Assembly (NCBI GenBank): GCA_003602605.1
Contig: QQRW01000028.1
Coordinates: forward strand, 1-56,283
Direction of reading: 5' to 3'
DNA from: Candidatus Poseidoniales archaeon
GTDB taxonomy: Archaea > Thermoplasmatota > Poseidoniia > Poseidoniales > Poseidoniaceae
DNA length: 56,283 nt
The translations under genes were made by a program, and so were the position numbers. This document shows positions 3,045 through 41,653 of the stretch, in pieces. The first letter of the stretch is position 1. The number at the start of each line of letters is the position of its first letter. The notes under the pieces are model-generated. The model ran no database searches. It saw only the letters and a program-made list of their open reading frames with translations, and was not told where the DNA came from.

Positions 3045-3213
3045 GGGACATTGTCATTGCCGAGCCTCCTTGAACATTCTCCTTGCAAGCGAAGAGATTC
3101 CAACTGCATTTGTCCAACTTTTCAATTCTCTCAACAGTGATGCCGTAAGGTGTTTTCATGACGCTCAAGCGAAAAGACAGTAAATGGAGGTGGGCTTGAT
3201 TGCCTTGAGCCCC

Positions 3214-6200: not shown

Positions 6201-9200
6201 GCCTGACCTTACCACTTGGCAAACCTGTGCTGATGGCTCGTGTGCATCTGTTGAATTGCATCACAGAGAGGCTATGCCTGAATTGAATTTGCCGAATTTT
6301 GTCGACACCTATGTCATACAGTCTGGTTCTGGCTCATCCAGTACTTACGATACCTCGAATCAACTGAAAGTTGGTGCAACAAGCAACAATGTGCAAGCAC
6401 TCTCCCTTCTTCGAATCCCATTGAATTCTCTTCCACAGCCAACGAACGCTCGGGTAACGGGTGCAGAATTGAATTTGTATTCTGAGTTCTCATCAGCTGT
6501 CGGCGAACCAATTGCGGTCAGGCCAGTGCTCCAAGCGTGGAATACTTCGGCGAATGGCCTTACGTATGACGGCGTGAACAACTGGTCACAAGCTGGAGGC
6601 CGTGACCTTGGTACCGACCTTGGCGCGTATGTTGACCTGCAAGATTCGATTGCCTCGGGATGGATGAATTGGGATGTCAGTGAAGCCGTTCAAGCAGCAC
6701 TGGATGCCGGATCATCTACGCTTTCATTAGCTATTTATGCTTCAAACGACATTACTTCGTACTCCAACGGACCAAATGTGGTGACCTTTACTTCGACGGA
6801 TGGGACATCCTCTCAGCATCCTTGGCTGAACCTTACATGGTCGAACGGTACAGGATCTGTTCCAGCAACACCCGGCGTAAACGTAGGTCCTGCGAACGAT
6901 TCGGTATCATGGGATTCAAGTTCGCATGCATTGCTTGCAGATGAAACGCCTCTCTTCTCATGGAATCTCCCATCATCTGTTGCTGCAGACGCATGGCGAA
7001 TACACATATTTGCAGACTCTACTGATGATATGGCGGGTCGATACACTTTCGATTCACGTGATGACCCAGACCTGTTCGATTTGCCAAACAAGACGTTTCA
7101 ACCGACTTCCCCAGTTGACTACTCTCCTACGGTTCGATGGACAGTTCAACCGATTCATCTCGGTATGATTGGCCCTCAAAGCACCTCCACTCTTTTCTAC
7201 GTGCCAGAGGTTGATTCAGCAGAAGTTGACGCAACACACGCATGGGTTGCTCTTCAAGAAGGCGCGATGGTCGATGAGGAAGGATACCCAATGATTACAT
7301 CGGACACAACACTTGACGGTGGTAATATATTCAACAATAACGGAGCTTCTTCGGCTCTGCTTGTGGGCCGTAGCCCGTCGAACAGCCTCCTTCGGACCAG
7401 TTCTCTTATCGAAATTGACTTCTCATCGTTACCATTACCTGCAGTTTACGAAATTAACAATGCGACCTTGACACTCACTGCATTTTCTGGAAGCGGTGAA
7501 GTGTTTGTGACCGTTTCAGAAATGATCACGAACTGGAATGAATCATCGAGTTGGGCTTATCCAGGTAACAATTCAACCTCATGGGTCGGAGCAGGTGCAT
7601 ACCAGTCCGCCGACTCCATGGTTCCCGAGACACGCGGCTTTTGGATGAATGAAACAGCAGATTTCGAAATCAACGTTACTTCAATGCTCCAACATGCTGT
7701 TGAACGGGGTCAAGAGAGCCTGAACATTCTTTTGCAAGCGGAAGACGCTTTCGGAACCGTTGCTGGAACATACTACATCGCTAGCAGCGAAAACTCAGTC
7801 ATTGACGATCGTCCAAAACTCACGATTGGATACGAACTCACATCACCATGGACTCCAACAAGTCCTACAAACCTCGAACCCTTTGATGGATCCACACTTT
7901 GGAACCTTTCCTCTGCGTTACCAGCTGGAACAGAAACGGTTGAAAGCAATTGGACTTCATCGGATTCAAATCAAACGCAATGGGTTCTCTGCGGTGCATT
8001 CAATCCGAGAATGACAGTAGGCCTTGAATGCTACAATTCCACAGCACTCTCCTTTGATACAGATCTCGACATAACTTGGGATGCACAAAATCTCTCTGTT
8101 TTCATCGAAGGTCTTGAACAGGCTGATGAATGGAAGTATTGGCGAGTTCGTGGTGACCAGGACGGCCGGATTGGCCATTGGTCAACTGTGCATAAGTTCC
8201 GCATTCCTGACGTGAAGCAGACTGATGCTTCTTCTGATGGACTCGGAAATTACTCAGTTACCCTCTCACGCGGCTCACTCTTTAGCGATACTGGCCTCCT
8301 TCCAGAAGTTCCTGATGCTGAAATATCATCTTCTGCCACAACACCTCTTGGTTTATCGAACCAACTGAATCTCGGAACTTCTGCATCGGGCACTGGTGAA
8401 AGTCAAGTTCTGCTCGAATTCGATTTGAGTTCACTTCCATGGCCTGCTGCTATAACACCAACCTCTATGCTTCTCAGTTTGTACCGAACCAGCGTGACTG
8501 GTACTTCAGCAACCACTGTGTCAGCACATGCTTGTTCATCGTTCGTTGAAGCTACCGTTGACTGGAGCACGAGCGGCCCGTGTTCGAACAGTGAAATAAC
8601 TCGTTCGACTCTCACTTTGAGCCCTGCTTCTGGTTGGGCTTCTTGGGATCTGACAAGTTTAGCGCAGAGCAACATTGCCAACGGGAATCTCACCATGACC
8701 ATCCTGCTGAAGTCAGTTGGTGCACCTGCGACAAATCATGCCTTCTACTCGTCAGACGGGAGTAATACGCTTCTAAGACCGAAGCTCGTTATCGATTATG
8801 TGGACAACGTCAACGGCGTATTGCCACCTGCTCAACCCGCTCTCAGCACGCCTCAAGATGGTTCAGTACTGTACAATGTGTCTGGCTCAGTACTCGAATC
8901 GAACGATCGTCCAGTACTCGTGTGGTCTCCAGTATCTGGTGCTACTGGCTATATTCTTACCATTGCGAACGAAACAGGTGTTGTCAAATACAATTCATTG
9001 GATTCCTCTGCGATAACCGGGACAACCTTCCGATTTGCCAACTCACTTCCGAATGGTGAAGTGTTTACATGGTGGGTGCAAGCTATTAATCAATCGATAC
9101 CGGGGCCTTCATCATCACGCTGGACCTTCGCTATCGGCGCTCCAGACCATGTTGATAACGGTGATTTGACTTTCACATACACCTTCCAAACAGGCAGTGA

Positions 9201-12200
9201 AGTCTCACAGTTTGGACATACGAACATTCGAGAAACACATCTTAACGAGGCTGAACCATCAACGAACTTTGGTGATTCGAGCCGTGTTGAACTTGGTACT
9301 GGCTTTGGTCCAAACTCTGGGATGCAATCTCATCTTACCTTTGCTCTAGATAACGGACAAGTTCCACTTGCTGGGCATTCAAACATCCATTCTGCAAGCG
9401 CAGGATTCTACATTGATTCGTGGACTGAAACCGGTGGCGCAACTGAGATGACATTCAGCGTTCACCGAATTATTAACTCGCAGTGGGCACAATCTTCGTC
9501 AACTTGGAATGCGTCTTCGAGTTCAACTTCAGGCGCTTGGGGTGCACCTGGAATGCAGGCTGGTGTTGATTATGATGCCACGCCAATCTCTACGTTTGTT
9601 GAGACGAACATGAATGAGGACCGATGGATTTGGTTTGACATTGGTGTGGACGGTATGCTCATAGATAACGACAATTCTTGGATTATCATTGGAACTCCAA
9701 ATCAGGGAACCCTGATGGCAGAGTTCTACTCTAGCGAGTATTCAGTTTCCGACAAGCGTCCTAAGATTCTCCTTAATCACACGGATGTAACGACAATCTC
9801 GGTTTCTCCGACTTCACCAACGACGGATGCAGACACGAGTGTTTCCTTCTCGAACGTTGTATACGACCACCTTAACATGGCAATCGGTGCTCCAATCGTA
9901 TGGAGCGCAAGCAACGGGTCTATCACTCAATCTGGCGTATTTACTCCATATGCTACAGGTCAGCACACCGTCACTGCTTGCTTTGGTATCATATGTACCA
10001 GCGAAACAGTAACGGTCACACCCGGTGCGCCAGTTGAACTGGTTGTATCGCCAGCGACTGCAACAATTACGGCAGATCAATCCTTGCAAATCGTGGCATA
10101 TGTGGTCGATCAGTTTGGTAACACCGTACCTGGTCAGACCATTGCCTACCTCCCAAGCAACGGTAGCATGGACTCCTCCACTGAAGGTTTGTTCTTACCG
10201 GTAAGTGCAGGTCTTCAATCCGTAGATGTTACTTGGAACGGTGCTATGATGACGCCCCAGACCATCTCCGTTTCAATTCTTGTTGAGACTGGTCTTCCGT
10301 CCTATTTCGTTCTCGAGGGTTGTCAAGGCACTGTTCCTGCTGGAATTCTTTGTGCCATCACGCACACGCTTTACGACCAATTTGGAAACGAAATTCTTGA
10401 TGTTTCAGAGGCAGGAGACTTCACTTGGACTGCCTCAAATGGTAACTACAGCGAAACAACCGGTGAGTACTTCCCAGACCACGTTGGTGATTGGTACCTC
10501 AACTTGACATCCACTTCCGGTGCGCACGGCTCATTGCTGATCACTGTTGGCCATGGCCAGATGGCAAGTCTTGAATTGGCAGCTTCGTCCACATCGATTA
10601 CTGCTGATGAACAAGTATGGATTAACACGACTCGAATTGATATCCGTGGAAACCGATTACCAGTTCTTCTTGAACTCGATAACTGGATAACTCCTCAAGA
10701 CAGTCAATTGTTACCGGGCGCTCCAGCAATCTGGTCGCCAACCTCTCGTGGTGCCAAGATTATTCAGGCCACGTACGAAACGATTTCTTCTGAAATTACA
10801 ATCACTGTAGAGGAAGGTGCCATTGTGTCGCTTATGCTTCTTGTCGACAATGATGTAGCAACTTGGGAACATTTCGACATCACCGCTGACGACCTTTTCG
10901 ATGTAAAGGTCAAGGCATACGATCAAAAGGACAACCGTTGGATTGTATCTGCTAATTGGAGTTTAACTCACCCTGAATGGACCTCACAATCTGCTCTAGA
11001 GCAGTTGACGGGAGACGAGACAACATTTGTCCCATACCTCGCTTCAACTGAACGTTACACTATTACTGCCGCATACTACGATGGAACTACTTTCCATGAG
11101 GTGAGTATCAACGTAACAGTTTCTCACGGTGATTTGAATTCAGTCACGCTAACTGCGACTGGTAGTGATGGCCTTGCAAACACAGTCTTTGACATGACTT
11201 CTGATGAATACATCGACTTTACATCGGCTCTCGCCGATTTGGACATGAATCCAATCGACTCTTCCATTCTTGAATGGTACCTCAAGGACACCGATACCGG
11301 TGTCTACACCGTCATCACCGACGAATTGGTTGCAAACAACATGCGTTGGGAGGCTTCGGCGGTTGGCAATTGGTCGATTTCGGCCTCTGCAATCAGTGAT
11401 TCTGGATACAATATCAGTGATACTGTTACTCTTTCAGTCGTTCATGGCAAGGCAGTTAGTGTGATTGCAGTTCTTGATACCACGACCCAAACAGCAGGTG
11501 AAGAAATCACCATGGTTGTCACCGGAACAGATTCAGATGGCAACACATTCCCACAAAATGTAGAATGGTTGGAGAACGACGTAACAGTTGAGAACATTAC
11601 TGCTGGGGAAAGCGAAGGGACATATGTCTACTTAGCGACCACCGCTGGTGAACATACGCTGAAGTACACGACAGGGTCCGCTGACTCATCGCTTGTAATC
11701 ACTGTTGAAGCACAGCGTATCGTTGATTCTTTGGATATCCAAATATCCTCACAATCAGTTGACCAACTGTCGAACTTTACGGTTACTGTCAAAGCCTTTG
11801 ATATGTATCTTAATCAAATCGAAGTCCCACCGAGTGCGGATGTAGACGCCACTGGTCGAGCTGAAGTAGTGCAGCAAGGACCTGGCGTTTGGAACGTTAT
11901 CACGCTTGATGATGGCACAGTAACGGTGACGATTACCGCAGGCAAAGTGTTAGAAGAAAGAAATATCGAAGTTGAAGGCAATATTGGTGGATTCTTCAAG
12001 GCAGGCGGGCCACTTTACTATGTTGGAGCAGTTCTTCTTGGAATTGTTAGCATCGTCGTTGTTGGCTTATTGATCTCCATGCTTCGTGGTGGCGATTCTG
12101 GTTACGATGACGACGACGATGAGTACGACGATTATGATGACGACGATTCAAGCGCTCCTCTAAGTGCTGCCTCTGGCCCATCAGGTCCTGCTCCGGCCAT

Positions 12201-12399
12201 TGGTCCAACAGGTCCTGCGCCAGGCCCATCAGGCCCCGCTCCTGAACAGAAGGAAGTGCCAGAAATAGTGCAAGAAGACACATCATGGCAAGTCGACCAT
12301 CGTGTCGATGAAGATGGAACGGAATGGGCACAGGATGAAAATGGCACATGGTGGTATCGCCAAGAAGGCGACACCGATTGGGGCGAATGGAAGGATTGA
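3214..12399 (+). CDS. Giant modular surface protein (3,061 aa): seven DNRLRE-like/Fn3-like repeats plus Ig-like stalk
   Basis: The start chosen (MLRETAPRRTALTIF) gives a basic N-terminus plus a ~20-residue hydrophobic signal segment. Seven modules follow, opening near nt 3373, 4328, 5314, 6304, 7303, 8315 and 9233, that is every ~920-1010 nt. Each has a beta-sandwich of the DNRLRE/CBM96 kind, with a D-T/S-Y-x opening and lines such as SLLRIPLNSLP and SSWxxxG. Most are followed by an Fn3-like domain with a WYWRVRA-type strand. From ~9,784 come about eight Ig-like domains (SPATATITADQSLQIVAYV pattern). One membrane helix follows at nt ~12,000-12,080, then an Asp-rich tail, a Pro-Gly-Ala segment and a Trp-rich end (GTEWAQDENGTWWYRQEG). 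N-x-S/T sequons are frequent. Adhesion, polysaccharide binding or a cell-surface fibre are plausible roles. No catalytic residues are recognised. An in-frame ATG at 3184 is less likely because a GGAGGTG lies downstream of it. Confidence 0.85.
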   Translation: MLRETAPRRTALTIFLVLMFLFADLLLPQSIDFEQNLDDSSRIYYVTSTDSVLSDTYITEANPSSNYNSSTTGALGTSTSGYESRILFDFAMNFSAADTIHSATLNIVCDVVSLSPATMNIYAASSNSWNSSTVTWYQSDMGMPWGETGADGTNDRSSWEPPFRAMTNGTYSLNVTAFAQEAASNNETHFGVLLSGLGSHFECKMSESFPITDRPELVMVTSSNAAGNGGSVTSNFATDGMPLMTNGLILAADTAPTLSYESLVGTHVDFQLSLDSAFKDYNDLDWYYSTITDSFSTTSSSGTYTIPSSDRFDNGTRVFYRVRSIDTTDTLSEWSTTESFLLPSHTVTDNGDGTASIEVTRNQLGDIGTFIEDSYSNELSKNTKYGSDSILETSVTSNKESLIHLRMDLSLLGLPSNATIIDAQVNLTRDSSSNDPMLSMHEMESTPWVESELTWNRESNANSWSDGGRVYSSVASATGFNGTQTSDDYGFAFTDVAQSWLESGDSSASEFLITARGKDEAYSTTGTKSISFFSTEASIEDDQPYVYIHYGLNTGNQLSTVVLTGPAEDAAVWNQSGHNFTANLTPSITWTPSASNGEMLLQMATDEQFRNVVLTSNTGIENDFSPSDGILNMTGENTLTAGNMYFWRMAYLDSDGRYGPWSTSNFLVSSLESTWLGGERSEFRMKHGNGTTDGLYPECLDTYIDSGTPNQNYDDESRLLVSYNTYPIEAMALLNCNLRSNLLPAGYAVESAQLSMVIASTPSNSPRVAVWENTQSNWTDSGATWNSYDGTNSWTTAGAKGSERSSLLDSIQLDSSYSNGDRISWNVTLGVQNAMRQNSSADFMIGILGVGSGSNREVQLYPGFAADVRKPELTFVYVPGSNVVPNNPSPVSPLNGSWSMGTGVDQTPIKRPTLEWSFGNAVGVAGWAVQLDTSDSFDSASLLTRTSWNDGGFDSTNFTYTPTSDLDDGATWYWRVRAISATNQIGNWSNIFTFSVPDLTTWQTCADGSCASVELHHREAMPELNLPNFVDTYVIQSGSGSSSTYDTSNQLKVGATSNNVQALSLLRIPLNSLPQPTNARVTGAELNLYSEFSSAVGEPIAVRPVLQAWNTSANGLTYDGVNNWSQAGGRDLGTDLGAYVDLQDSIASGWMNWDVSEAVQAALDAGSSTLSLAIYASNDITSYSNGPNVVTFTSTDGTSSQHPWLNLTWSNGTGSVPATPGVNVGPANDSVSWDSSSHALLADETPLFSWNLPSSVAADAWRIHIFADSTDDMAGRYTFDSRDDPDLFDLPNKTFQPTSPVDYSPTVRWTVQPIHLGMIGPQSTSTLFYVPEVDSAEVDATHAWVALQEGAMVDEEGYPMITSDTTLDGGNIFNNNGASSALLVGRSPSNSLLRTSSLIEIDFSSLPLPAVYEINNATLTLTAFSGSGEVFVTVSEMITNWNESSSWAYPGNNSTSWVGAGAYQSADSMVPETRGFWMNETADFEINVTSMLQHAVERGQESLNILLQAEDAFGTVAGTYYIASSENSVIDDRPKLTIGYELTSPWTPTSPTNLEPFDGSTLWNLSSALPAGTETVESNWTSSDSNQTQWVLCGAFNPRMTVGLECYNSTALSFDTDLDITWDAQNLSVFIEGLEQADEWKYWRVRGDQDGRIGHWSTVHKFRIPDVKQTDASSDGLGNYSVTLSRGSLFSDTGLLPEVPDAEISSSATTPLGLSNQLNLGTSASGTGESQVLLEFDLSSLPWPAAITPTSMLLSLYRTSVTGTSATTVSAHACSSFVEATVDWSTSGPCSNSEITRSTLTLSPASGWASWDLTSLAQSNIANGNLTMTILLKSVGAPATNHAFYSSDGSNTLLRPKLVIDYVDNVNGVLPPAQPALSTPQDGSVLYNVSGSVLESNDRPVLVWSPVSGATGYILTIANETGVVKYNSLDSSAITGTTFRFANSLPNGEVFTWWVQAINQSIPGPSSSRWTFAIGAPDHVDNGDLTFTYTFQTGSEVSQFGHTNIRETHLNEAEPSTNFGDSSRVELGTGFGPNSGMQSHLTFALDNGQVPLAGHSNIHSASAGFYIDSWTETGGATEMTFSVHRIINSQWAQSSSTWNASSSSTSGAWGAPGMQAGVDYDATPISTFVETNMNEDRWIWFDIGVDGMLIDNDNSWIIIGTPNQGTLMAEFYSSEYSVSDKRPKILLNHTDVTTISVSPTSPTTDADTSVSFSNVVYDHLNMAIGAPIVWSASNGSITQSGVFTPYATGQHTVTACFGIICTSETVTVTPGAPVELVVSPATATITADQSLQIVAYVVDQFGNTVPGQTIAYLPSNGSMDSSTEGLFLPVSAGLQSVDVTWNGAMMTPQTISVSILVETGLPSYFVLEGCQGTVPAGILCAITHTLYDQFGNEILDVSEAGDFTWTASNGNYSETTGEYFPDHVGDWYLNLTSTSGAHGSLLITVGHGQMASLELAASSTSITADEQVWINTTRIDIRGNRLPVLLELDNWITPQDSQLLPGAPAIWSPTSRGAKIIQATYETISSEITITVEEGAIVSLMLLVDNDVATWEHFDITADDLFDVKVKAYDQKDNRWIVSANWSLTHPEWTSQSALEQLTGDETTFVPYLASTERYTITAAYYDGTTFHEVSINVTVSHGDLNSVTLTATGSDGLANTVFDMTSDEYIDFTSALADLDMNPIDSSILEWYLKDTDTGVYTVITDELVANNMRWEASAVGNWSISASAISDSGYNISDTVTLSVVHGKAVSVIAVLDTTTQTAGEEITMVVTGTDSDGNTFPQNVEWLENDVTVENITAGESEGTYVYLATTAGEHTLKYTTGSADSSLVITVEAQRIVDSLDIQISSQSVDQLSNFTVTVKAFDMYLNQIEVPPSADVDATGRAEVVQQGPGVWNVITLDDGTVTVTITAGKVLEERNIEVEGNIGGFFKAGGPLYYVGAVLLGIVSIVVVGLLISMLRGGDSGYDDDDDEYDDYDDDDSSAPLSAASGPSGPAPAIGPTGPAPGPSGPAPEQKEVPEIVQEDTSWQVDHRVDEDGTEWAQDENGTWWYRQEGDTDWGEWKD

Positions 12400-31655: not shown

Positions 31656-31779
31656 ATTACGTGGGGTAAGGGTAGAGGACATCAACCATTCGTTTCTTTT
31701 CGGTTGTCAACAGTAGAGTGATTGTGTATATTCTTACTGAATATTCCTTTGCAGAATATTATTGGCCAAGAATAAGCGG

Positions 31780-31796
31780 TTTATTCATATATACCG
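31780..31796 (+). promoter_or_regulatory. TATA box of metK
   Basis: TTTATTCATATATACC ends about 18 nt before the metK ATG and its core is centred ~25 nt before it, so transcription would begin at or next to the start codon (leaderless mRNA). The box also helps reject the longer GTG-started frame that runs through it. Confidence 0.6.
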
Positions 31797-31813
31797 GGCT
31801 GAGCGCGACAGCC

Positions 31814-33052
31814 ATGACTGGAGACCTCTTTTCATCCGAATCAGTAACACGCGGCCATCCTGACAAGCTATGTGACACTATTTCAGACGCTATCGTTGAT
31901 GCCTGCCTCGCCATTGACAGCAACGCTCGTGTTGCCGTTGAAACCTGTGTAAAAGGGAAGGAAGACATGGGGCTCATTGTGCTTGCAGGCGAAGTTTCAC
32001 TTTCCGGCGAAGCACCGGATTATGAGGCTGTGGCCCGTGAAGCAGCAGCTCAAGTTGGCTATACCTCGCACGCAATAGGCATGGATGCAACCACCTCGCA
32101 ATATACCGAAGTTCAAGTCCATATCACGACGCAATCTTCGTACATTGCACAAGGTGTCAATCAAGACTTACTCGCACAAGGTGCAGGAGACCAGGGGTTG
32201 ATGTTTGGCTACGCTTGCACAGAAACCGAGGACTTCGATCAACTCAAAGGTCGATATTTCCCGCTCGCAGCAGCACTCTCTCAGCGCCTGACCCGTCGCC
32301 TCACTCAAGTTCGAGAACAAGGAATTCTGCCTTGGTCTAGGCCAGATGGAAAGTCACAGGTAACTGTGGAATATGACGAAAATGGGGACATCTCGCGTGT
32401 GCACACCGTTATTATCGCCATTCAACACGATGACAAACTGAAAGACCAATTTGATGGCTCTGAAGAGGAGGAATTGGAATACGTGCGTTCGCAAGTGCTT
32501 GAACACGTCGTGAAAGAAGTCATACCCGCTAATCTTCTTGACGAAGATTGCAAAGTAGTGGTCAACGGTACCGGTCGTTTTGCAGACCCCGGAGGTCCAT
32601 ACGCTGATGCAGGTCTGACTGGGCGTAAAATCATCGTTGACACCTACGGCGGCATGGGTCGACACGGTGGTGGAGCTTTCTCTGGAAAAGACCCGTCGAA
32701 GGTCGACCGTTCTGCAGCATATGCATCTCGCTGGGCTGCCAAACACGTCGTTGCTTCTGGCCTCGCAACTCGCTGTGAAATCCAATTGGCTTATGTGATC
32801 GGAATCGCAGAGCCTGTGAGCGTTCGTGTCGAAACTTTTGGAACATCCACGGTTCCTGCACGTGAAATTGCTGAGCGTGTAAAATCAACGTTTGATTTCC
32901 GCCCAGGGGCGATTGCCCGAGATCTCAAACTTCTCAACCCAATTTATTCAGTTACGGCATCAGGTGGTCACTTCGGTCGTAATCCAGGTTCCGATGGGAG
33001 TTTCCCTTGGGAGCAAATCGAGGAAAGTCGTATCAACTCGTTGCTCAACTGA
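31814..33052 (+). CDS. metK: S-adenosylmethionine synthetase, bacterial-type MetK, 412 aa
   Basis: All MetK signatures are present: SESVTRGHPDKLCDTISDA at the N-terminus (ATP and metal), GAGDQGLMFGYACTET, DPGGPYADAGLTGRKIIVD and GGGAFSGKDPSKVDRSAAY with the phosphate-binding Lys and Arg. The enzyme makes SAM from Met and ATP. Most archaea use a very divergent MAT (archaeal family), so this bacterial/eukaryotic-type enzyme is a probable ancient acquisition in this lineage. Start at 31814 (MTGDLFSSES); the upstream in-frame GTG extension covers the TATA box and has no homology. trmI, a SAM user, is 4 kb downstream. Confidence 0.96.
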   Translation: MTGDLFSSESVTRGHPDKLCDTISDAIVDACLAIDSNARVAVETCVKGKEDMGLIVLAGEVSLSGEAPDYEAVAREAAAQVGYTSHAIGMDATTSQYTEVQVHITTQSSYIAQGVNQDLLAQGAGDQGLMFGYACTETEDFDQLKGRYFPLAAALSQRLTRRLTQVREQGILPWSRPDGKSQVTVEYDENGDISRVHTVIIAIQHDDKLKDQFDGSEEEELEYVRSQVLEHVVKEVIPANLLDEDCKVVVNGTGRFADPGGPYADAGLTGRKIIVDTYGGMGRHGGGAFSGKDPSKVDRSAAYASRWAAKHVVASGLATRCEIQLAYVIGIAEPVSVRVETFGTSTVPAREIAERVKSTFDFRPGAIARDLKLLNPIYSVTASGGHFGRNPGSDGSFPWEQIEESRINSLLN

Positions 33053-33124: not shown

Positions 33125-36100
33125 ATGTCGAATCGTCCAACTCGTGCCGTCGCCTTTGTGCTCGTGCTGCTGTTCGCAAGCATGTCTCCGCTTGCTTTGC
33201 AAGTCAGCGCTCACCAGAGCATCTTGTTGTCAACAGATACATCTCATGTCATCCTCATGGGAGGCGAATCCGGCAATGTGACCTTAAACATCGAAAACAA
33301 CGCTACTGCCATTGAATCGTTCAACGTCACCGTCGACACTTCCGGTCTCTCCTCCGTTTGGCAGGTAATTCCGAGCGAGTCTACAGTCGAAAATGTGTTT
33401 CCAACTTGGAGCAAAAACACAACGATTGTTGTCCGCCTGAGTGAAGGTGCTCTCTCAACCGACAGTGGCTCTTTTGATATTCATGTTACTGAACCTGATC
33501 AAAACTTCAGCAGTTCAATCACGATTTATGTTTCAGTTGCCCCATCGTATAATCCATCGCTGGATCTTTCGCAAATGGGTGGGCCACTTACCTCGATGGA
33601 GGCCGGTTCAAACACTACGTTTTCGATCGGAGTCGAAAATCTTGGATCTGTTGAAGACACAATACTCCTTGATGTCGAATTTGAACCCGACTTGGCCGCC
33701 TGGTGGGCGAATTATACCAATGGCTCAAGCAACAATTCTGGAAATAACACAGGCAACAACACCGGCGGAAATGGAACTGGAAACGGAACGGGTGGTAACG
33801 GAACAGGAAATGGAACCGGCGGAAATGGAACTGGAAACGGAACGGGTGGTAACGGAACAGGAAATGGGACCGGTGGTAACGGAACTGGCAACAACACAAC
33901 CTTGGCCGTAGACAATGTACTGATGTTTGGTAACAGCTACACATTGTTCAATTCGCTCGGCTCTATGGTCGAATCACTGGGTGTTACCAACGCAGATGTT
34001 GTTGCAGCTGGTGGTAATGACCTCGCAGATCATTGGGCCAATGTCAATTTTTCAGGAAGCAATTCGAACACTACACTGCGTGACCCAAATATTGACTGGG
34101 ACTTCGTCGTCTTGCAAGACCAAAGCCAAATTCCTTCACTGCCAACAAACGATACCAATTGGCAGGCAAGTAAGAACGGTTCAGTCAACCTCGCTACCGA
34201 AATCGAAGTTGAAGGGGGAGACTCCGTTCTTTTCATGACCTGGGGCCGACGGAACGGTGAATCAGCGAATCAATGGCATCAACATAACAACATCAATCAA
34301 AACTTTACGGATATGCAAAATCGATTAGCCAATGGGTACTACCGCTATGCGGAGAATATGAGTGCTGCCGGAAACACGGTATGGATTGCACCCGTAGGGC
34401 TCGCCTATGAACACATTCACGACTACATCCTCGCAGGCGGTGTCAACCCGACCTCAACGGGTAATACATTCTACAATTTGTATGACGCAGATGGAAGCCA
34501 CCCCTCCGTTTCAGGCAGTTATCTTGCCGCTTGTGTACTCTATGCGACCATGACTGGAAATTCACCGGTTGGTTCCAACGACACAGTGTCGCTTAGTGCG
34601 GCTCTCAAACTTGAACTCCAGCAAGCAGCTGCTGCAACAGTCTTCAACGAAACTTCGCACATCGACTACCCATGGGAATCGTCCCCATCCCCATCGAGCA
34701 TGATGATGACATCTCCTCGCGGACTCGGTGGAGGTATTCCGAGCGGATGGAATGTGCAATGGAGCAACGATCAGTATTCGAACATGCCCGCAGGTAGTTC
34801 ACAAACCGCAAACCTTCACATTTCAGTTCCAAGTAACGCTGCACCGGATTACTACGGGTTCAGATTGTTTAGCGCTTCCACAGGCGGCAATGTATCGTCA
34901 TCGACTTTAATCGTGGTACAAGTTAACGAAGACCATCAAATTAGCGTAGCCTTCCTCGGCCAAAACAACGAATTCATCCCAGGCCTTGCGACTGATTCTT
35001 CAATTCAAGTCACGAACACTGGGAACGCCATGGTTGATTACGACTGGGCACTCTCGGTTGAAGACGGTCCTTGTGAAGTCATGCTTGCTACGGCAACATC
35101 TTCCCTAGCTTCGAATGATGTCGTAGATGTCGATTTCCAGTTATCTGTTCATGAAGAGGCAACAAAGTCTGACAACTGCGATTTGAAATTCGAAGGAACA
35201 GGTTCCTCAAATTCTGAACAACATTCAGTTGAACCGTATTTATTTACAATCGATGTTGATGAACTGGTGGAATTTGAACTGGTCGGTCCAACGACGAACG
35301 TGGAGGTTGCACCGGGAACCCCAGTTGAATACGAAATGCGGATTCTTAACAACGGTAGCGAGACAGTGACCTTCTATCTTGACGTACTATCCACATCTGG
35401 ATTGACGACGGCCATTGTCTCGGGTTCGAGCGTTACTGTGGCGCCTGGTGAATCGGGAGTTTGGAGCTTGTCAACCGATGCAGACGTAGGCCAGTCTGGC
35501 TCCCTCATGCAGATGTTTTCGGTAAGTTATTCAGATTCCTCGTCTTCTGAGACCGTTCGTGTTGAGATCTTGGGCGTGAGTCAAGCAACCATTACAGGTC
35601 CTCTGGATGGAAGAATTCAAGTCCGACCGGGTGAATCAGTCACTACCAATTTCACACTCGAAAATACAGGGACAACGGCCCTCACTTTGAACGCAGCACT
35701 CCTTGGATTGCCTGCCGAAGTAGAGGCGGCATTGAGCAATAATTCAGTGACTCTCAGTGTTGGGGAATTGAGAGAAGTTCAACTCACGCTTACCGTCTCG
35801 ACTTCCGCATCAGCCAGCACAAATGAAATTACGTTTGCATATTTGGATTCAGAAGTTTCAGCTCACTTGACGCTCTCTCTCCAAATCCAGGAACGGATTG
35901 CAGTTCTGCTCGGTTCCACGACCACTCGAGTTGTGGCCGGGCCGAGTGCTGATGCTGTGTTCACATTTGATGCGACCAATCTCGGCACTTCCTCCGATAC
36001 ATTGTACGTGAGTTTGGTCGATAATGGCGCTTCAGACTGGTTTGAGTTTGAACTCTCAGCAACTTCTCTTCTTCTCGAATCTGGCGAATCCATGTCCGTG

Positions 36101-37255
36101 ACTCTTCTTGTGCGAGAAATTTCTTCCGGCGCTCCAACGAACGGTGTTGTCGTTTCGGTTCAATTGCGTTCATCAAGTGATGACTCCATCTTTACGCACC
36201 TCAACCTCACCGTGGAAGCTCTCGTCGCAGGCGCTGACATCACCGTTCTCTCAGATGATGACTCTGCTCCGCCTTCCGGTGTCATTCATGGCACTGTAGT
36301 TGTTACAAACAGTGGTTCAGGTTCGGACCAATTGCTTCTCAGTACCGTGGGAATTGATTGCGGTGTTTCGACAGTACTTTCTCTCGGCGCAGGAGAATCC
36401 TCTGCAGCGCTGCCGTGGTCCTGCACCTTGCCAGAAGATGCTGAGGCAGGCTTGAAAGAATTAAGATTCCGTGTCACCAGTTCTTCTCGAACCTCGTTTT
36501 CAGACAGCAGTGTTGAAATCTACACTGTTGAACCAGTGTGGGATGATTCTGGTGTACTCCAACTGGTGTTCGATGAAGCCTCTCTCTCCGTTCCTTCTTC
36601 CGGTGGCTCATCAATGGTTCTCACTGTTACGAATCTCGCTAATGCACAAGTCACAGGAACACTATCACTCGATGGAATTGGCGATGGTCTCATGGTCAGT
36701 GAATGGATAAGGCTATCTGATAATTCCACAACAAACCAATTTACGCTTTCACCGGGCTCATCAATTCAGTTTTCTCTCAGTTTAACCTCACTGGTCTCCA
36801 CCAATGAGGAGGCGACACTACAGGCCCGAGCGACATACCTCATCGGCGATACGACCTCTTCAGAGACATCCGATGATGTTGTGGTTAGTATTGTTGGCCC
36901 TGAATTACCGCCGAACGGAATACTCTTGCCGTTTGATGTTGCTCTCAGTCAATCTGATTCGCTCAATGCAATGCTTGGTGGTTGGGGATTGTCGCTGCTT
37001 ATTCTTACAGTGCTCTACTTGAGGCGTGGTAAGAAGAACTCGGTTCCTCGTGAAGAAGAAGACGTGTCTGAATACGATGAAGCAGAAGTTGTCGAAGAGG
37101 AGTCTACAGAACTCGGCTACAATGAATGCCGTTTGGAAGGTGACAAGGTATCCTGTCCTTCATGCGATGCTAGACTTGGTGTCCCTCGTGGCAGCGAGCC
37201 GCCGTTTAGATTTACATGCCCGAAGTGTTCGACGCTCATCCGAGTGATTGACTGA
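33125..37255 (+). CDS. Surface protein with sequon-repeat linker, SGNH hydrolase-like domain, beta-sandwich stalk and cytosolic zinc ribbon, 1,376 aa
   Basis: A signal peptide (AVAFVLVLLFASMSPLAL) is followed by two beta-sandwich domains. Residues 214-258 are five exact nine-residue units rich in N-G-T. An SGNH/GDSL-like domain comes next (~262-480) with nucleophile Ser271 in MFGNSYTLF, AAGGNDLADHW and the D456-x-x-H459 pair in DADGSHPSVSGSYLA. From ~560 to ~1,280 there are several NEW3/CARDB-like beta-sandwich repeats (VAPGTPVEYEMRILNNGSE style). One membrane helix (GLSLLILTVLYLRRG) leads to an acidic stretch and a C-terminal zinc ribbon with CPSC and CPKC pairs. Likely an outside-facing esterase or deacetylase acting on glycans, anchored in the membrane. 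The zinc ribbon on the inside is unusual. Confidence 0.85.
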   Translation: MSNRPTRAVAFVLVLLFASMSPLALQVSAHQSILLSTDTSHVILMGGESGNVTLNIENNATAIESFNVTVDTSGLSSVWQVIPSESTVENVFPTWSKNTTIVVRLSEGALSTDSGSFDIHVTEPDQNFSSSITIYVSVAPSYNPSLDLSQMGGPLTSMEAGSNTTFSIGVENLGSVEDTILLDVEFEPDLAAWWANYTNGSSNNSGNNTGNNTGGNGTGNGTGGNGTGNGTGGNGTGNGTGGNGTGNGTGGNGTGNNTTLAVDNVLMFGNSYTLFNSLGSMVESLGVTNADVVAAGGNDLADHWANVNFSGSNSNTTLRDPNIDWDFVVLQDQSQIPSLPTNDTNWQASKNGSVNLATEIEVEGGDSVLFMTWGRRNGESANQWHQHNNINQNFTDMQNRLANGYYRYAENMSAAGNTVWIAPVGLAYEHIHDYILAGGVNPTSTGNTFYNLYDADGSHPSVSGSYLAACVLYATMTGNSPVGSNDTVSLSAALKLELQQAAAATVFNETSHIDYPWESSPSPSSMMMTSPRGLGGGIPSGWNVQWSNDQYSNMPAGSSQTANLHISVPSNAAPDYYGFRLFSASTGGNVSSSTLIVVQVNEDHQISVAFLGQNNEFIPGLATDSSIQVTNTGNAMVDYDWALSVEDGPCEVMLATATSSLASNDVVDVDFQLSVHEEATKSDNCDLKFEGTGSSNSEQHSVEPYLFTIDVDELVEFELVGPTTNVEVAPGTPVEYEMRILNNGSETVTFYLDVLSTSGLTTAIVSGSSVTVAPGESGVWSLSTDADVGQSGSLMQMFSVSYSDSSSSETVRVEILGVSQATITGPLDGRIQVRPGESVTTNFTLENTGTTALTLNAALLGLPAEVEAALSNNSVTLSVGELREVQLTLTVSTSASASTNEITFAYLDSEVSAHLTLSLQIQERIAVLLGSTTTRVVAGPSADAVFTFDATNLGTSSDTLYVSLVDNGASDWFEFELSATSLLLESGESMSVTLLVREISSGAPTNGVVVSVQLRSSSDDSIFTHLNLTVEALVAGADITVLSDDDSAPPSGVIHGTVVVTNSGSGSDQLLLSTVGIDCGVSTVLSLGAGESSAALPWSCTLPEDAEAGLKELRFRVTSSSRTSFSDSSVEIYTVEPVWDDSGVLQLVFDEASLSVPSSGGSSMVLTVTNLANAQVTGTLSLDGIGDGLMVSEWIRLSDNSTTNQFTLSPGSSIQFSLSLTSLVSTNEEATLQARATYLIGDTTSSETSDDVVVSIVGPELPPNGILLPFDVALSQSDSLNAMLGGWGLSLLILTVLYLRRGKKNSVPREEEDVSEYDEAEVVEEESTELGYNECRLEGDKVSCPSCDARLGVPRGSEPPFRFTCPKCSTLIRVID
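33764..33898 (+). repeat. Five 27-nt tandem repeats encoding GGNGTGNGT
   Basis: Five in-frame 27-nt units code for GGNGTGNGT (the last ends GNNTT). Units alternate between two synonymous DNA versions, so units 1-2 and 3-4 form a nearly perfect 54-nt higher-order repeat. Each unit has two N-G-T sequons for archaeal N-glycosylation, giving a densely sequon-bearing flexible linker before the SGNH domain. Copy number could vary between strains by slippage or recombination. Confidence 0.9.
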
Positions 37256-38044
37256 TCATTCGCGCCGATAAGCGAGAAGTAAAAACGCCGTATGTCCAAA
37301 CGGACCGTTGACTGGTCGAACGCCACCTTTGGAGGCCTTACCCCACTGGCGTTGAATGAGTTCGCCAGCCCATTCAATTTCAAGGCCCTCTTCTTCACAG
37401 GCAATCCACGCATTTTCGAGTTGACTCGTTACTGGACAGTAACAAACCATACGACCTCCAATGTTGAGCATTGATGCCACGGCGTGTATCGCTGAAGGAT
37501 GCTCTGGTAGGTCGAGAATAATTGCATCATAGGATGGGCTAATTGCGGATATTTCATTGGCAACTTCTTCGATTGTACCCTCAATATGGTGATGTGAAGG
37601 GAACTCAGTCCAGCTTTCTTCACATCTGCGCAAGTTCTCGAGGGCAACATCAGCGTGCTCACTGCGGGGTTCAACGGTGACATGGATTCCACTGCTTCCG
37701 AGAATGCGGGCGATGTACATCGAAAGACCTCCGCTACCTATTCCAGCTTCAAGCACACTGTCGCTCGGCCCAATACCCATTCGTGAGGTGATGAATCCAG
37801 CATCTTTGGCAGAGATTGTTTGGGCACGTCGAAGCATGCCTTTACCCATCTCTGGAAGGCGGAGGGGTACACGTGTCAACACCTTCTGTCCAACCAAGAC
37901 CTCTTCTCCGATGTCAATGCCCGAGAAGAGTTCCTTCGCATCGATGACTCCAAGTCCTTTGATTTTCCGAACTCCATCCAGCATTTCAACGATGTGAACT
38001 CGACCGTCTGCTTCTACAAACGCTGACCATTTGACTGGGTTCAT
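37256..38044 (-). CDS. trmI: tRNA (adenine-N1)-methyltransferase (m1A57/58)
   Basis: A class I SAM-dependent methyltransferase of 262 aa in the TrmI/Trm61 family. Features are RRAQTISAKDAGFITSRMGI before the core, the SAM-binding VLEAGIGSGGLSMYIAR, the acidic turn VTVEPRSEHADVA and motif IV AIILDLPEH, followed by MVCYCPVTSQLENAW. The N-terminal beta domain is shorter than in bacterial TrmI. It methylates A57 and/or A58 in the T loop of tRNAs, which stabilises them. Its stop overlaps head-to-head with that of the surface-protein gene at TGATCA. A divergent promoter region separates it from the thioredoxin-like surface protein. Confidence 0.92.
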   Translation of the reverse strand: MNPVKWSAFVEADGRVHIVEMLDGVRKIKGLGVIDAKELFSGIDIGEEVLVGQKVLTRVPLRLPEMGKGMLRRAQTISAKDAGFITSRMGIGPSDSVLEAGIGSGGLSMYIARILGSSGIHVTVEPRSEHADVALENLRRCEESWTEFPSHHHIEGTIEEVANEISAISPSYDAIILDLPEHPSAIHAVASMLNIGGRMVCYCPVTSQLENAWIACEEEGLEIEWAGELIQRQWGKASKGGVRPVNGPFGHTAFLLLAYRRE

Positions 38045-38142
38045 GGTCTTGCCAATCGCCCTTGTGCCTAAATCTTGTTGTCCGGAGAAATCTATATTAC
38101 TGTTTATTTCTTACATCCCATTTACTCACTTGAAAGGGTGGG

Positions 38143-38152
38143 TTTCATATAC
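38143..38152 (+). promoter_or_regulatory. TATA box of the thioredoxin-like surface-protein gene
   Basis: TTTCATATAC is centred ~20-25 nt upstream of the ATGs at 38168 and 38174, as expected for a leaderless transcript. It lies in the 123-nt divergent region shared with trmI. It may favour the second ATG as first base of the mRNA. Confidence 0.5.
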
Positions 38153-38167
38153 TGTCTTGTCAGTGCG

Positions 38168-41100
38168 ATGCCCATGAAGATGCTTGCGCGCCTCATGGCC
38201 CTGACAATTACGGCTCTGTTCATTGGAAGTACAATGACTCACTTTGTTGGCCCTCTCCAGCTCGAAAATGACGACTATTCGCTGGATGACGAGCATGAAG
38301 TCTCTCGTGCAGCAACCTCTCCAGGTCATACCGTGTTTGCCGAATACTACGGTGCGGATTGGTGTCCACCATGCCAAAACGGTGGCTCCCCGTCTCACCA
38401 CGCTCTCAAGACGAATTTCCCCGACGATTATGTCTACATCTCTTACTTTGAGTCAAACGGTCAAGGTGTCAGCGATCCGTTGAATCGACTTGCTCACGTC
38501 CGAGATGGTACAGGCTCGATTCCTGCGGCGTCGTTTGGTGACGCCCGAGCAGGTAGTTCATTCCACAAGCTTGGTGCTGCCACAGGGACCACTGCTTACG
38601 ATACCCAATTCTCAAACGGTGGAGACATGAAGTCGGTGAATGATTTCAAACTCTCAGTCAGCCAATCTCAAACTGGTTCCAACATGGACATCACTTACAC
38701 TCTCGAATACCTCGGCATTTCGTCGAGTAAGACGGTTTATCTTCTCGCTGTTGTGGCAGAGGAAACCAGCCCTGATACCTACAACAACGGCCAAACTCAT
38801 CCACATAATGTCATCCGTTCTTGGTTACTCAATTCGAACAACAATGGCTTTGAATCCTTTACCCTCACTCCAAACAACCCAGTCACAAAGACATGGACAA
38901 TGCCTGTGAATACTGTACGGGCAAACGGTGCTACAACTGCGGCTGACAACTTTATTTCAATTGGTGCAATAATGGGCGGACCCCACACCTCTTGGAACGA
39001 TGTGTATGTAGCTGCTGATTCCAACATGGGTCCTAAGTTGGATATCTCAGTTTCCGACTTTACGGTTAATTCTGCGGAATCCACGAACTCGGGCTTCGTC
39101 ATTGGCGACTCGTTGACGATCGATGCCACGGTGAGGAATGTTGGTGATTTGGACTACTCTGATGGTGGCTCGCTCGTCTTCTATTACAAGAACGGTGCAT
39201 CGGAAGTGACTCTGTCCTCATACTCGCTGAACAATCTCAACATCCAAGGAACTCAGACCGAGCAATACACCTTCGATTCCTCATCTCTCCCATCCGGTTG
39301 GAAAACTACGTTTGGGGCTAAAATCACTGGTATCATCGGCGATGTAAGTGGGATGAACAATGTTGCTCAGCAACAATATGATCAGGACCGCCCTCCAGTG
39401 TCGAAGAACCCTCAAATCCAAGGTGACCAACTCATCGAACGTGGAAACCACGCAATGGTTCTCGCAAAGGCCGATGCCGACGACACTGTTGACACGACTG
39501 CTTCCATGTCTTTTAATGTCGAAATCTCTCCTGCTGGTCTCAACCAATGGTCCAGTTCAGTCATTTCTGGTGGACAAAATGTGGTTTACTCCGGAACAGC
39601 AAATGAAGGCCGTGAATACGTAATCACGCCGTCTGGAACGATGGCTGCAGGATGGTATGATGTTCGTTCACAAGCAGTTGATTCACGTGGTCAAGTCGGC
39701 GACTGGAAGGTCATTAATGGACAATCTGGCTTCGAACTCAAGAACGGCGCTCCAGTCGTTATTGCCGACCCAATCCCTTCGGTCATGTGTGATACTACAA
39801 CAAAGGTCTCGATGGCCGGGCACATTGTCGACCCCGAGACGCCACTCAGCGACCTTATTGTTACTTCATCCGACCCTTCGTTCATTGCTTGGCATCCCCT
39901 TACCGAGGAACTTGAAGTCAACTTTGCATGGTCTGAACTCAACGGATGCCCTCTTGGACAACAAGGAATCGAACTCTCAATTGACGATGGTGGCGATTAC
40001 TCCGCAGCCGGAGAACTTCCATACGGCACAATGCTGTTTAGTGTCACTGAAAATGGGCAGCCTCGGTGGAATGGATTGCCTTCTCAATTCGTTGATGAAG
40101 GTGGCAGTGGAGTTCTAGCCCTTCTCCCGTATTTGTTTGACACCGATGACTTTGGAAACCCGACACCAGTCGAAGACCTTTCCATCCAACTCATCAGCAA
40201 TTCCAACGAACAAGCAATTACGGCTTCCCTCGACGGAAACACCATTGGTTTCCAAACCGTTGATGACGATTCAAACGGGCAAGCGATTCTTACACTTCGT
40301 GCAAGCGACGGTGTAAAAACTTCTGATGCAACCCTCAAAATTAACATTCAACCAATCAATGATGCTCCTCGCCTTGTACCGATCGATGACATCACTACTC
40401 TCACAATGAAACGTAATTCTCAATTGGTGATCGACCTTGCTAGCCGTGTAGTCGATGTTGACAACCCATCTGATGAAGCTTTCATCACAGTGTCCTCCAG
40501 TGAGGCAGGCGCTGCACGCTTCAGTTTCATCGATGGAAGCCTAACACTGGAATTTGAGGAAATTGGCATGCATACGGTCACCATCCTCTTGCAAGACAAA
40601 TTCGATTCACAATCGTACACTCTCAATGTGGAGGTCTTTGATGCATATCCATTCTTGATTTCGAAGGAAGAATCGGATACCAGCTACATGTTCGTTACCC
40701 TTGAGGATACATACATTGGTCAAATCCCAACAGTGACAATGTTGCTCACTGATAACTCCCCAACTTTTACCTTCATTTCCGTCACTTGGAACGTATGTAA
40801 CAAGCTCACTGGAACCTGTGATGGTATTATGCAATACAACCTTGACACATCGAAATCAAATGTTGGTTGGACCGACAAACTTCTCGTGCCCTCGATATTG
40901 ACGCCGGGCGAATTTGCACGTGAAGACGGTTCACAATACAAGGACTACTACCAACTGGTCATTTCCGCAGTCGACAGTAACGGCGACGATTACAAGATGA
41001 TGTCTGATTTGAAATGGGACATTACCGAATCAATGCCGACCATCTCTGAAATGGATGAAATAATGTTCTCCAACTATCTCGAAGACCTCATTGCTGACAA

Positions 41101-41653
41101 AGAAGAACTCGTTGCTCAAATTGATGCTTTGAATGAAGGAGAGGATTCCAGTGCTCTTGAAATCGAACTTTCTGAACTAAACGTCGAACTCGACCTCGCT
41201 TGCAACGACCCACGTGCCTCGTGTACAGATGAAACAGTTGCTGGAACAACCCTTGATACAACTGATAACGAACTGAACCTGCAAATGATTGGTCTGATTG
41301 GCGGAATAATTCTCGCAGGTCTTCTCATCGGACTCATGTTCTCTCGTAGGAACGGTGACACAATACCCAAGGATGTCTGGAACAACACTGGATGGAACCC
41401 GGATATGGTACCTGCTCACGACACAGTCGCTAATTCGATGTATGGTGGCGCTCAAGCAATCTTCCAACAACCAATGGCTGTCGCCCCTACTCCAACGCCT
41501 CAACCAGTATTCCAACAACCAGTAACAGTCGCCCCTGCTCCAGTGCCTCAAGCCATACCTGGACCACCTTTGCCTCCAGGCGGTTTGCCGGCAGGTTGGA
41601 GTCCTGAACAGTGGGCTTACTACGGCCAGCGATACCTCGATGGTACGCTATGA
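38168..41653 (+). CDS. Surface protein with N-terminal thioredoxin-like CPPC domain, 1,161 aa
   Basis: A signal peptide (LMALTITALFIG) is followed by a thioredoxin-like fold with EYYGADWCPPCQN, C66 and C69 being the redox pair. Beyond come a CARDB-like domain (~290-400), several beta-sandwich domains with cadherin-like strands (AILTLRASDGVKTSDATLKI), and a coiled segment DLIADKEELVAQIDAL. One membrane helix (IGGIILAGLLIGLMF) leads to a proline-rich cytosolic tail with QQPxxVAPxPxPQ units and an end GWSPEQWAYYGQRYLDG. The protein might catalyse or repair disulfides outside the membrane or respond to redox state. Start at 38168 or 38174 (two ATGs in frame). lonB follows 66 nt downstream on the same strand. 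Confidence 0.85.
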   Translation: MPMKMLARLMALTITALFIGSTMTHFVGPLQLENDDYSLDDEHEVSRAATSPGHTVFAEYYGADWCPPCQNGGSPSHHALKTNFPDDYVYISYFESNGQGVSDPLNRLAHVRDGTGSIPAASFGDARAGSSFHKLGAATGTTAYDTQFSNGGDMKSVNDFKLSVSQSQTGSNMDITYTLEYLGISSSKTVYLLAVVAEETSPDTYNNGQTHPHNVIRSWLLNSNNNGFESFTLTPNNPVTKTWTMPVNTVRANGATTAADNFISIGAIMGGPHTSWNDVYVAADSNMGPKLDISVSDFTVNSAESTNSGFVIGDSLTIDATVRNVGDLDYSDGGSLVFYYKNGASEVTLSSYSLNNLNIQGTQTEQYTFDSSSLPSGWKTTFGAKITGIIGDVSGMNNVAQQQYDQDRPPVSKNPQIQGDQLIERGNHAMVLAKADADDTVDTTASMSFNVEISPAGLNQWSSSVISGGQNVVYSGTANEGREYVITPSGTMAAGWYDVRSQAVDSRGQVGDWKVINGQSGFELKNGAPVVIADPIPSVMCDTTTKVSMAGHIVDPETPLSDLIVTSSDPSFIAWHPLTEELEVNFAWSELNGCPLGQQGIELSIDDGGDYSAAGELPYGTMLFSVTENGQPRWNGLPSQFVDEGGSGVLALLPYLFDTDDFGNPTPVEDLSIQLISNSNEQAITASLDGNTIGFQTVDDDSNGQAILTLRASDGVKTSDATLKINIQPINDAPRLVPIDDITTLTMKRNSQLVIDLASRVVDVDNPSDEAFITVSSSEAGAARFSFIDGSLTLEFEEIGMHTVTILLQDKFDSQSYTLNVEVFDAYPFLISKEESDTSYMFVTLEDTYIGQIPTVTMLLTDNSPTFTFISVTWNVCNKLTGTCDGIMQYNLDTSKSNVGWTDKLLVPSILTPGEFAREDGSQYKDYYQLVISAVDSNGDDYKMMSDLKWDITESMPTISEMDEIMFSNYLEDLIADKEELVAQIDALNEGEDSSALEIELSELNVELDLACNDPRASCTDETVAGTTLDTTDNELNLQMIGLIGGIILAGLLIGLMFSRRNGDTIPKDVWNNTGWNPDMVPAHDTVANSMYGGAQAIFQQPMAVAPTPTPQPVFQQPVTVAPAPVPQAIPGPPLPPGGLPAGWSPEQWAYYGQRYLDGTL

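Follow-up and report, generated by a model that had tools for sequence, protein, structure and literature searches.

The stretch of DNA analysed here (the window) comprises 56,283 nucleotides of contig QQRW01000028.1 from Candidatus Poseidoniales archaeon (assembly GCA_003602605.1). It contains, at 33125-37255, a gene for a large surface protein with an SGNH hydrolase-like domain in its exported part and a four-cysteine ribbon at its C-terminus. Orthologs of this protein were found in 139 of the 145 same-family genomes searched; among named relatives, genomes of Candidatus Poseidoniaceae (Marine Group II) are the closest, and the SGNH domain is 94% identical in locus L081. The features of the gene and its two conserved neighbours are listed below, with the basis of each assignment in brackets (Ig, immunoglobulin; pLDDT, predicted local distance difference test score).

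31718..33052, forward strand: S-adenosylmethionine synthetase gene (metK), conserved upstream neighbour (Pfam; synteny)
33125..37255, forward strand: whole gene, encoding a 1376-amino acid single-pass surface protein (open reading frame; orthologs in same-family genomes)
33125..33211, forward strand: signal peptide, residues 1-29 (hydrophobic segment 5-30; cleavage site predicted from sequence)
33212..33550, forward strand: Ig-like domain 1, residues 30-142 (nine strands in the model)
33551..33721, forward strand: first half of Ig-like domain 2, residues 143-199, ending EPDLAAWW (conserved in orthologs with and without SGNH; model strands)
33722..33910, forward strand: Gly/Asn/Thr tract, residues 200-262 (sequon count; low pLDDT; length variation among orthologs)
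33761..33892, forward strand: 27/54-bp tandem DNA repeat encoding the Gly/Asn/Thr tract (Tandem Repeats Finder)
33911..34684, forward strand: SGNH (DUF4886-type) domain, residues 263-520 (Pfam, alignment, model, structure match)
33935-33937, 34490-34492 and 34499-34501, forward strand: SGNH triad codons for Ser271, Asp456 and His459, respectively
34721..34942, forward strand: second half of Ig-like domain 2, residues 533-606 (NPCBM_assoc/NEW3 match at 538-576; tract-only orthologs)
34943..36910, forward strand: further Ig-like repeats forming a stalk, residues 607-1262 (FixG_C, HYDIN-like and related Ig matches)
36959..37021, forward strand: membrane helix, residues 1279-1299, followed by RRGKK (hydropathy; helix in the tail model)
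37154..37228, forward strand: four-Cys ribbon, Cys1344, 1347, 1365 and 1368 (CxxC-x17-CxxC; model pLDDT about 93)
37256..38044, reverse strand: GCD14/TrmI-like tRNA methyltransferase gene, conserved downstream neighbour (Pfam; synteny)

This architecture is far beyond what would be seen by chance. Hydropathy analysis identified residues 5-30 as a hydrophobic signal peptide and residues 1279-1299 as the sole other segment above the cut-off. The RRGKK charges directly after this helix favour a cytoplasmic location for the ribbon, from which they are separated by a very acidic linker. An earlier reading of the sequence only had placed the SGNH domain outside the cell and the ribbon inside, and this topology, with the N-terminal part exported and the ribbon cytoplasmic across a single helix, is supported by the sequence features and by the models.

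The SGNH domain belongs to the DUF4886 family (PF16227), which was matched by 23/23 aligned members (best E 2.3e-12); the copy of the window taken alone scored 19.8 bits, below the curated cut-off of 26.7. A profile search retrieved two relatives with solved structures, 4s1p (E 4e-21) and 4i8i (E 2e-8). Structure prediction had been called for by the sequence-only reading, and an AlphaFold2 model of residues 28-606 gives a confident SGNH fold, with a pLDDT mostly near 90 and one weak loop. The Foldseek list for this three-domain model was filled by Ig proteins, and the SGNH match was obtained in a second look with VIA-align, in which the top structural matches were 4i8i (Z 21.9, 217 residues, 2.5 Å) and 4s1p (Z 20.7), followed by known esterases at Z 13-15. 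The likeness to DUF4886 proteins, including 4i8i and 4s1p, extends to sequence family, fold, the Ser of block I and the Asp-x-x-His of block V, but these two solved proteins come from bacteria, whereas the domain described here interrupts an archaeal Ig domain and is accompanied by a sequon tract and a membrane anchor.

Ser271 and the Asp456-x-x-His459 pair, as identified in the sequence-only reading, are present, and each of the three residues is conserved in 93/94 rows of an alignment of 93 distinct full domains plus the query. Gly296, the candidate oxyanion-hole Gly of block II, is also kept in 93/94 rows; the GxND motif of block III, source of the oxyanion-hole Asn, was not seen in this alignment, which has a near-invariant QDQSQ region instead. 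The ratio of nonsynonymous to synonymous substitution rates (dN/dS) was 0.02-0.11 in 8/8 close pairs, indicating strong purifying selection. Given the conserved triad, the fold and the low dN/dS, the SGNH domain is very probably a working enzyme. The earlier description of an active esterase is likely to hold on the basis of the triad and the dN/dS values, with the lack of a known activity for DUF4886 proteins counting the other way: the available part of a 2022 review gives no activity for any member (PMC9487903). The domain could also be a lectin-like binding module or an acyltransferase. According to the same review, the SGNH superfamily also holds acyltransferases and an RNA-binding family (PMC9487903), the domains that take the place of SGNH in orthologs (a propeller and beta domains) resemble binders, and one member, L196 (genome G140), has T-N-E in place of the triad. 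Retention of the triad in all other rows, the strong purifying selection and the presence of acetyl-esterases among the structural matches below the two DUF4886-type structures nevertheless make a non-esterase role rather unlikely. L196 itself, with all three triad residues changed, may be a natural pseudoenzyme or an assembly error.

The SGNH domain lies within another domain. Ig-like domain 2 is interrupted after residue 199 by an insert consisting of the tract and the SGNH domain, and in the model its strand order parallels that of domain 1, the insert following the first strands of the domain. In 16 tract-only orthologs, the two halves are parted by only 42-110 amino acids of sequon tract. 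The Pfam model NEW3 matches the second half of domain 2 only, as it does in the two tract-only orthologs tested, and the split was therefore deduced from the orthologs and the strand order rather than from Pfam. The tract (residues 200-262) contains 14 N-x-S/T sequons in 63 residues, has low pLDDT values and differs in length between orthologs. It may be N-glycosylated, the genome having one STT3-family match. This STT3/AglB-type match (L239, G000:C21:146307-147122) is on the contig of the window, outside the window, and lies within an open frame of 3225 amino acids, unusually long for an oligosaccharyltransferase.

The gene occupies a fixed place, and the contents of the loop in Ig-like domain 2 differ between orthologs. 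Among 50 orthologs listed, metK was found upstream in 36/50 and the methyltransferase gene downstream in 46/50, whether or not SGNH was present; for the remainder, the neighbour was not found, in some cases because the contig or stretch ends. In total, 111 open reading frames passed the first ortholog filter, and 91 distinct orthologs have both halves of Ig-like domain 2 in order. Their loops contain SGNH (69), SGNH plus a beta-propeller (1), a propeller (1) or other contents (20), proportions that are not population frequencies, as the loci were chosen and are enriched for best matches and for cases without SGNH. The 20 other loops consist of 16 with the tract only, two with an insert of 161-169 residues and two with 325-326 residues; L072, one of the last two, was scanned and gave an InlB-like B-repeat domain match. 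Two further orthologs with a propeller, L184 and the ortholog in G034 (propeller then SGNH), are partial, at contig ends, and were left out of the 91 for want of both halves of Ig-like domain 2 in order. The structure alignment was based on 41 of 55 candidate loci, L092 (propeller) being left out. SGNH occurs once per genome in 182/187 genomes with a match, and in 68/68 in a second set; a genome-wide match search did not find it in many genomes of genus g11. In genomes whose chassis lacks it, SGNH can occur at the mature N-terminus of other large membrane proteins, and at least two other SGNH-bearing membrane chassis are present (L068, L070, L073, L144 and L156; L075, L078, L079 and L200).

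The differences in loop contents are found between closely related bodies. The bodies of L186 (tract only) and L184 (propeller) are 93% identical over 750 amino acids. Within genus g11, L076 has SGNH, L067 a seven-blade propeller and L168 the tract only, on bodies that are 73-76% identical. The propellers of L067 (g11) and L184 (g1) are identical at 640/666 bases (96%), whereas their bodies are identical at 48% of bases. The propeller has sharp edges: DNA identity between L067 and G034 (g1) climbs at the 5' tract, from about 50% to 97%, and drops past the 3' tract, from 96% to 35%, suggesting that the tracts may act as recombination seams. For SGNH itself, the evidence is a conflict between trees. 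The chassis of the window groups with L004 (L091 in the named set) in the body tree (46 rows) and in the housekeeping tree (51 rows), while its SGNH domain groups with L011, L012, L020 and genus g10, with support of 100/99. Clades drawn from the body and housekeeping trees were put to the approximately unbiased (AU) test on the SGNH data, which rejected both the 12-row chassis clade (p 0.0012) and the clade of L085, L126, L130 and L138 (p 2e-66).

This conflict could have arisen without exchange if SGNH was ancestral at the site, inherited vertically and lost several times, the disagreement being due to model error or uneven rates. SGNH is present at the same site in Thalassarchaeaceae-side loci (L115, L121, L124, L127 and L128), so an old presence is plausible, and several branches are long; however, the AU test rejected both clades, the conflict falls on branches with 100/99 support and the propeller case cannot be vertical, making this explanation quite unlikely. 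A further alternative is that the variety of the loops is mostly an assembly artefact, with tracts common to several surface genes misleading assemblers. The tracts are near-identical repeats, many genes contain propeller blades (33 matches in G047) and most of the genomes were assembled from metagenomes. Propeller versions were nevertheless found in four genomes (G018, G034, G047 and G092), those of G018 and G047 being internal to contigs (141 and 619 kb, respectively) and bordered on each side by sequence of the host type; tract-only versions occur in many g11 genomes; and the SGNH tree conflict is common to the window, L081 and L082, which come from different assemblies. An artefact on this scale is improbable. 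The matches in G047 are spread over many contigs and constitute a large pool of related blades, a possible source of propellers.

The C-terminal ribbon, unlike the loop, is constant. The CxxC-x17-CxxC motif is present in 100/100 distinct tails, including those of orthologs without SGNH, and the spacer has 17 residues throughout. In the tail model, a single helix leads into a small beta domain predicted with confidence. Its best Foldseek match was LysW (3vpb), which was not significant (E 0.95), and PF13717, a related Pfam model, matched the tail at only E 0.6, below the cut-off. The ribbon resembles the MJ0042-type zinc ribbons, with two CPxC knuckles and a VP...FxC core, but differs from them in its position in a cytoplasmic C-terminal tail and in its 17-residue spacer. 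Weak matches to the tail profile include at least three further membrane proteins from this genome that have similar C-terminal ribbons (L241, L242 and L244). These proteins have one or two CxxC ribbons at the end, after membrane helices. The possibility that the ribbon is unique to the 33125-37255 protein was rejected for this reason. As orthologs at the locus keep the ribbon when SGNH is missing or has a propeller in its place, and as other membrane proteins have similar tails, the ribbon belongs to the anchor, being a recurring kind of tail and not a partner specific to SGNH. The sequence-only reading had suggested a sensor or an anchoring role, and anchoring is the better half of that proposal. 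A transmembrane sensor, with the SGNH domain detecting or processing a ligand outside the cell and passing a signal to the ribbon in the cytoplasm, would fit the presence of both modules in a single chain, one on either side of the helix, and the conservation of all four cysteines, but is very improbable given the persistence of the ribbon in orthologs without SGNH, for which coupling was rejected as the principal explanation, its recurrence on other membrane proteins and the long flexible Ig stalk and single helix, which give no clear coupling.

Taken together, these results suggest that the protein is probably a tethered, glycan-directed esterase head, exchanged by recombination in a loop of an anchored Ig stalk. 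In the anchored stalk, a signal peptide and Ig-like repeats are followed by a single membrane helix and a zinc-ribbon-like tail in the cytoplasm. The loop of Ig-like domain 2 bears the head, which, in the lineage of the window, is a DUF4886-type SGNH domain preceded by a flexible, sequon-dense tract. Such a head would most likely strip acyl (probably O-acetyl) groups from glycans, either on the cell surface or on particles that the cell touches. The predicted ribbon may bind zinc and dock the protein inside the cell, and the Gly/Asn/Thr tract would be N-glycosylated. Heads would be swapped between lineages by recombination at one locus, the repeat tract forming the edges of the propeller cassette. 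A stronger proposal, put forward tentatively and with rather less than even confidence, is that the loop is a dedicated cassette site with the sequon-tract repeats as seams, the heads being taken from other genera. On that proposal, the site could hold an esterase, a propeller, other domains or a bare glycan brush, with about one SGNH domain kept per genome.

Several observations weigh against exchange of a glycan-directed esterase in a split Ig domain, beyond the triad exception in L196 and the silence of the review on DUF4886 activity. Alignment of Ig-like domains 1 and 2 with hhalign gave a probability of 31-65%, a weak result, although the placement agrees. There is no repeat tract 3' of SGNH in the window. 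Segment identity gave no sharp breakpoint for the SGNH domain of the window, the shift in identity being strongest at residues 341-420 of the protein, and because there is no sharp DNA breakpoint, the swap of this particular copy is deduced from the tree conflict. The housekeeping tree was a quick one, built without bootstraps, and most loci come from metagenome-assembled genomes, in which repeat tracts are prone to misassembly. The presence of SGNH on the Thalassarchaeaceae side makes an old origin, with later losses and swaps, plausible.

Further downstream, at 38075-41653, the window encodes a large exported protein of 1192 amino acids with a CPPC thioredoxin-like start and a weak cadherin-like match, an ortholog of which lies downstream in most of the 50 listed loci. 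An open reading frame of 3071 amino acids is found at 3184-12399.

Little is known of how the abundant, uncultured archaea of Marine Group II make contact with particles, algae and viruses. A single gene that keeps its position among housekeeping genes, and whose product combines an unchanging stalk with a variable head, would provide a direct handle on such contacts, as the type of head can be read from any genome or metagenome and set against depth, bloom stage or virus pressure. The analysis also suggests what an uncharacterised SGNH family may do, and a cassette site, if real, would amount to domain-level surface switching in abundant ocean archaea. A search of titles and abstract starts in the open-licence literature found no paper on the 33125-37255 gene, and none was found there on Poseidoniales SGNH, Marine Group II GDSL or MJ0042-ribbon membrane proteins; on DUF4886, a single review was found.

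Three known systems are comparable. The protein has a weak match (39 of 70 bits) to the NCBIfam 'choice-of-anchor' model NF041740, and resembles the 'choice-of-anchor' families in being a surface protein with modular exchange of parts. Those families vary the anchor, whereas in the present protein it is the head that varies, on a constant anchor. The 'major variable surface proteins' of Haloquadratum walsbyi are syntenic but have different domain architectures, and the island in which they lie is shaped in part by recombination (PMC4535781). The likeness lies in a syntenic locus for membrane surface proteins of archaea, with differing architectures and a part played by recombination; there, however, the whole ectodomain type varies, within a genomic island of one species (PMC4535781), whereas here the stalk and tail are constant and what varies, across genera, is one insert in an Ig loop of a gene flanked by housekeeping genes. 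Within the same order as the window, the Poseidoniales, proteorhodopsin is described as replaced by 'overwrite' of a single copy (PMC6461757), which concerns a whole gene there and a domain within an otherwise retained gene here. The protein described here thus represents, at the level of a domain, a variant of both the H. walsbyi and the proteorhodopsin cases, in which a constant stalk and tail carry a changeable insert in an Ig loop.

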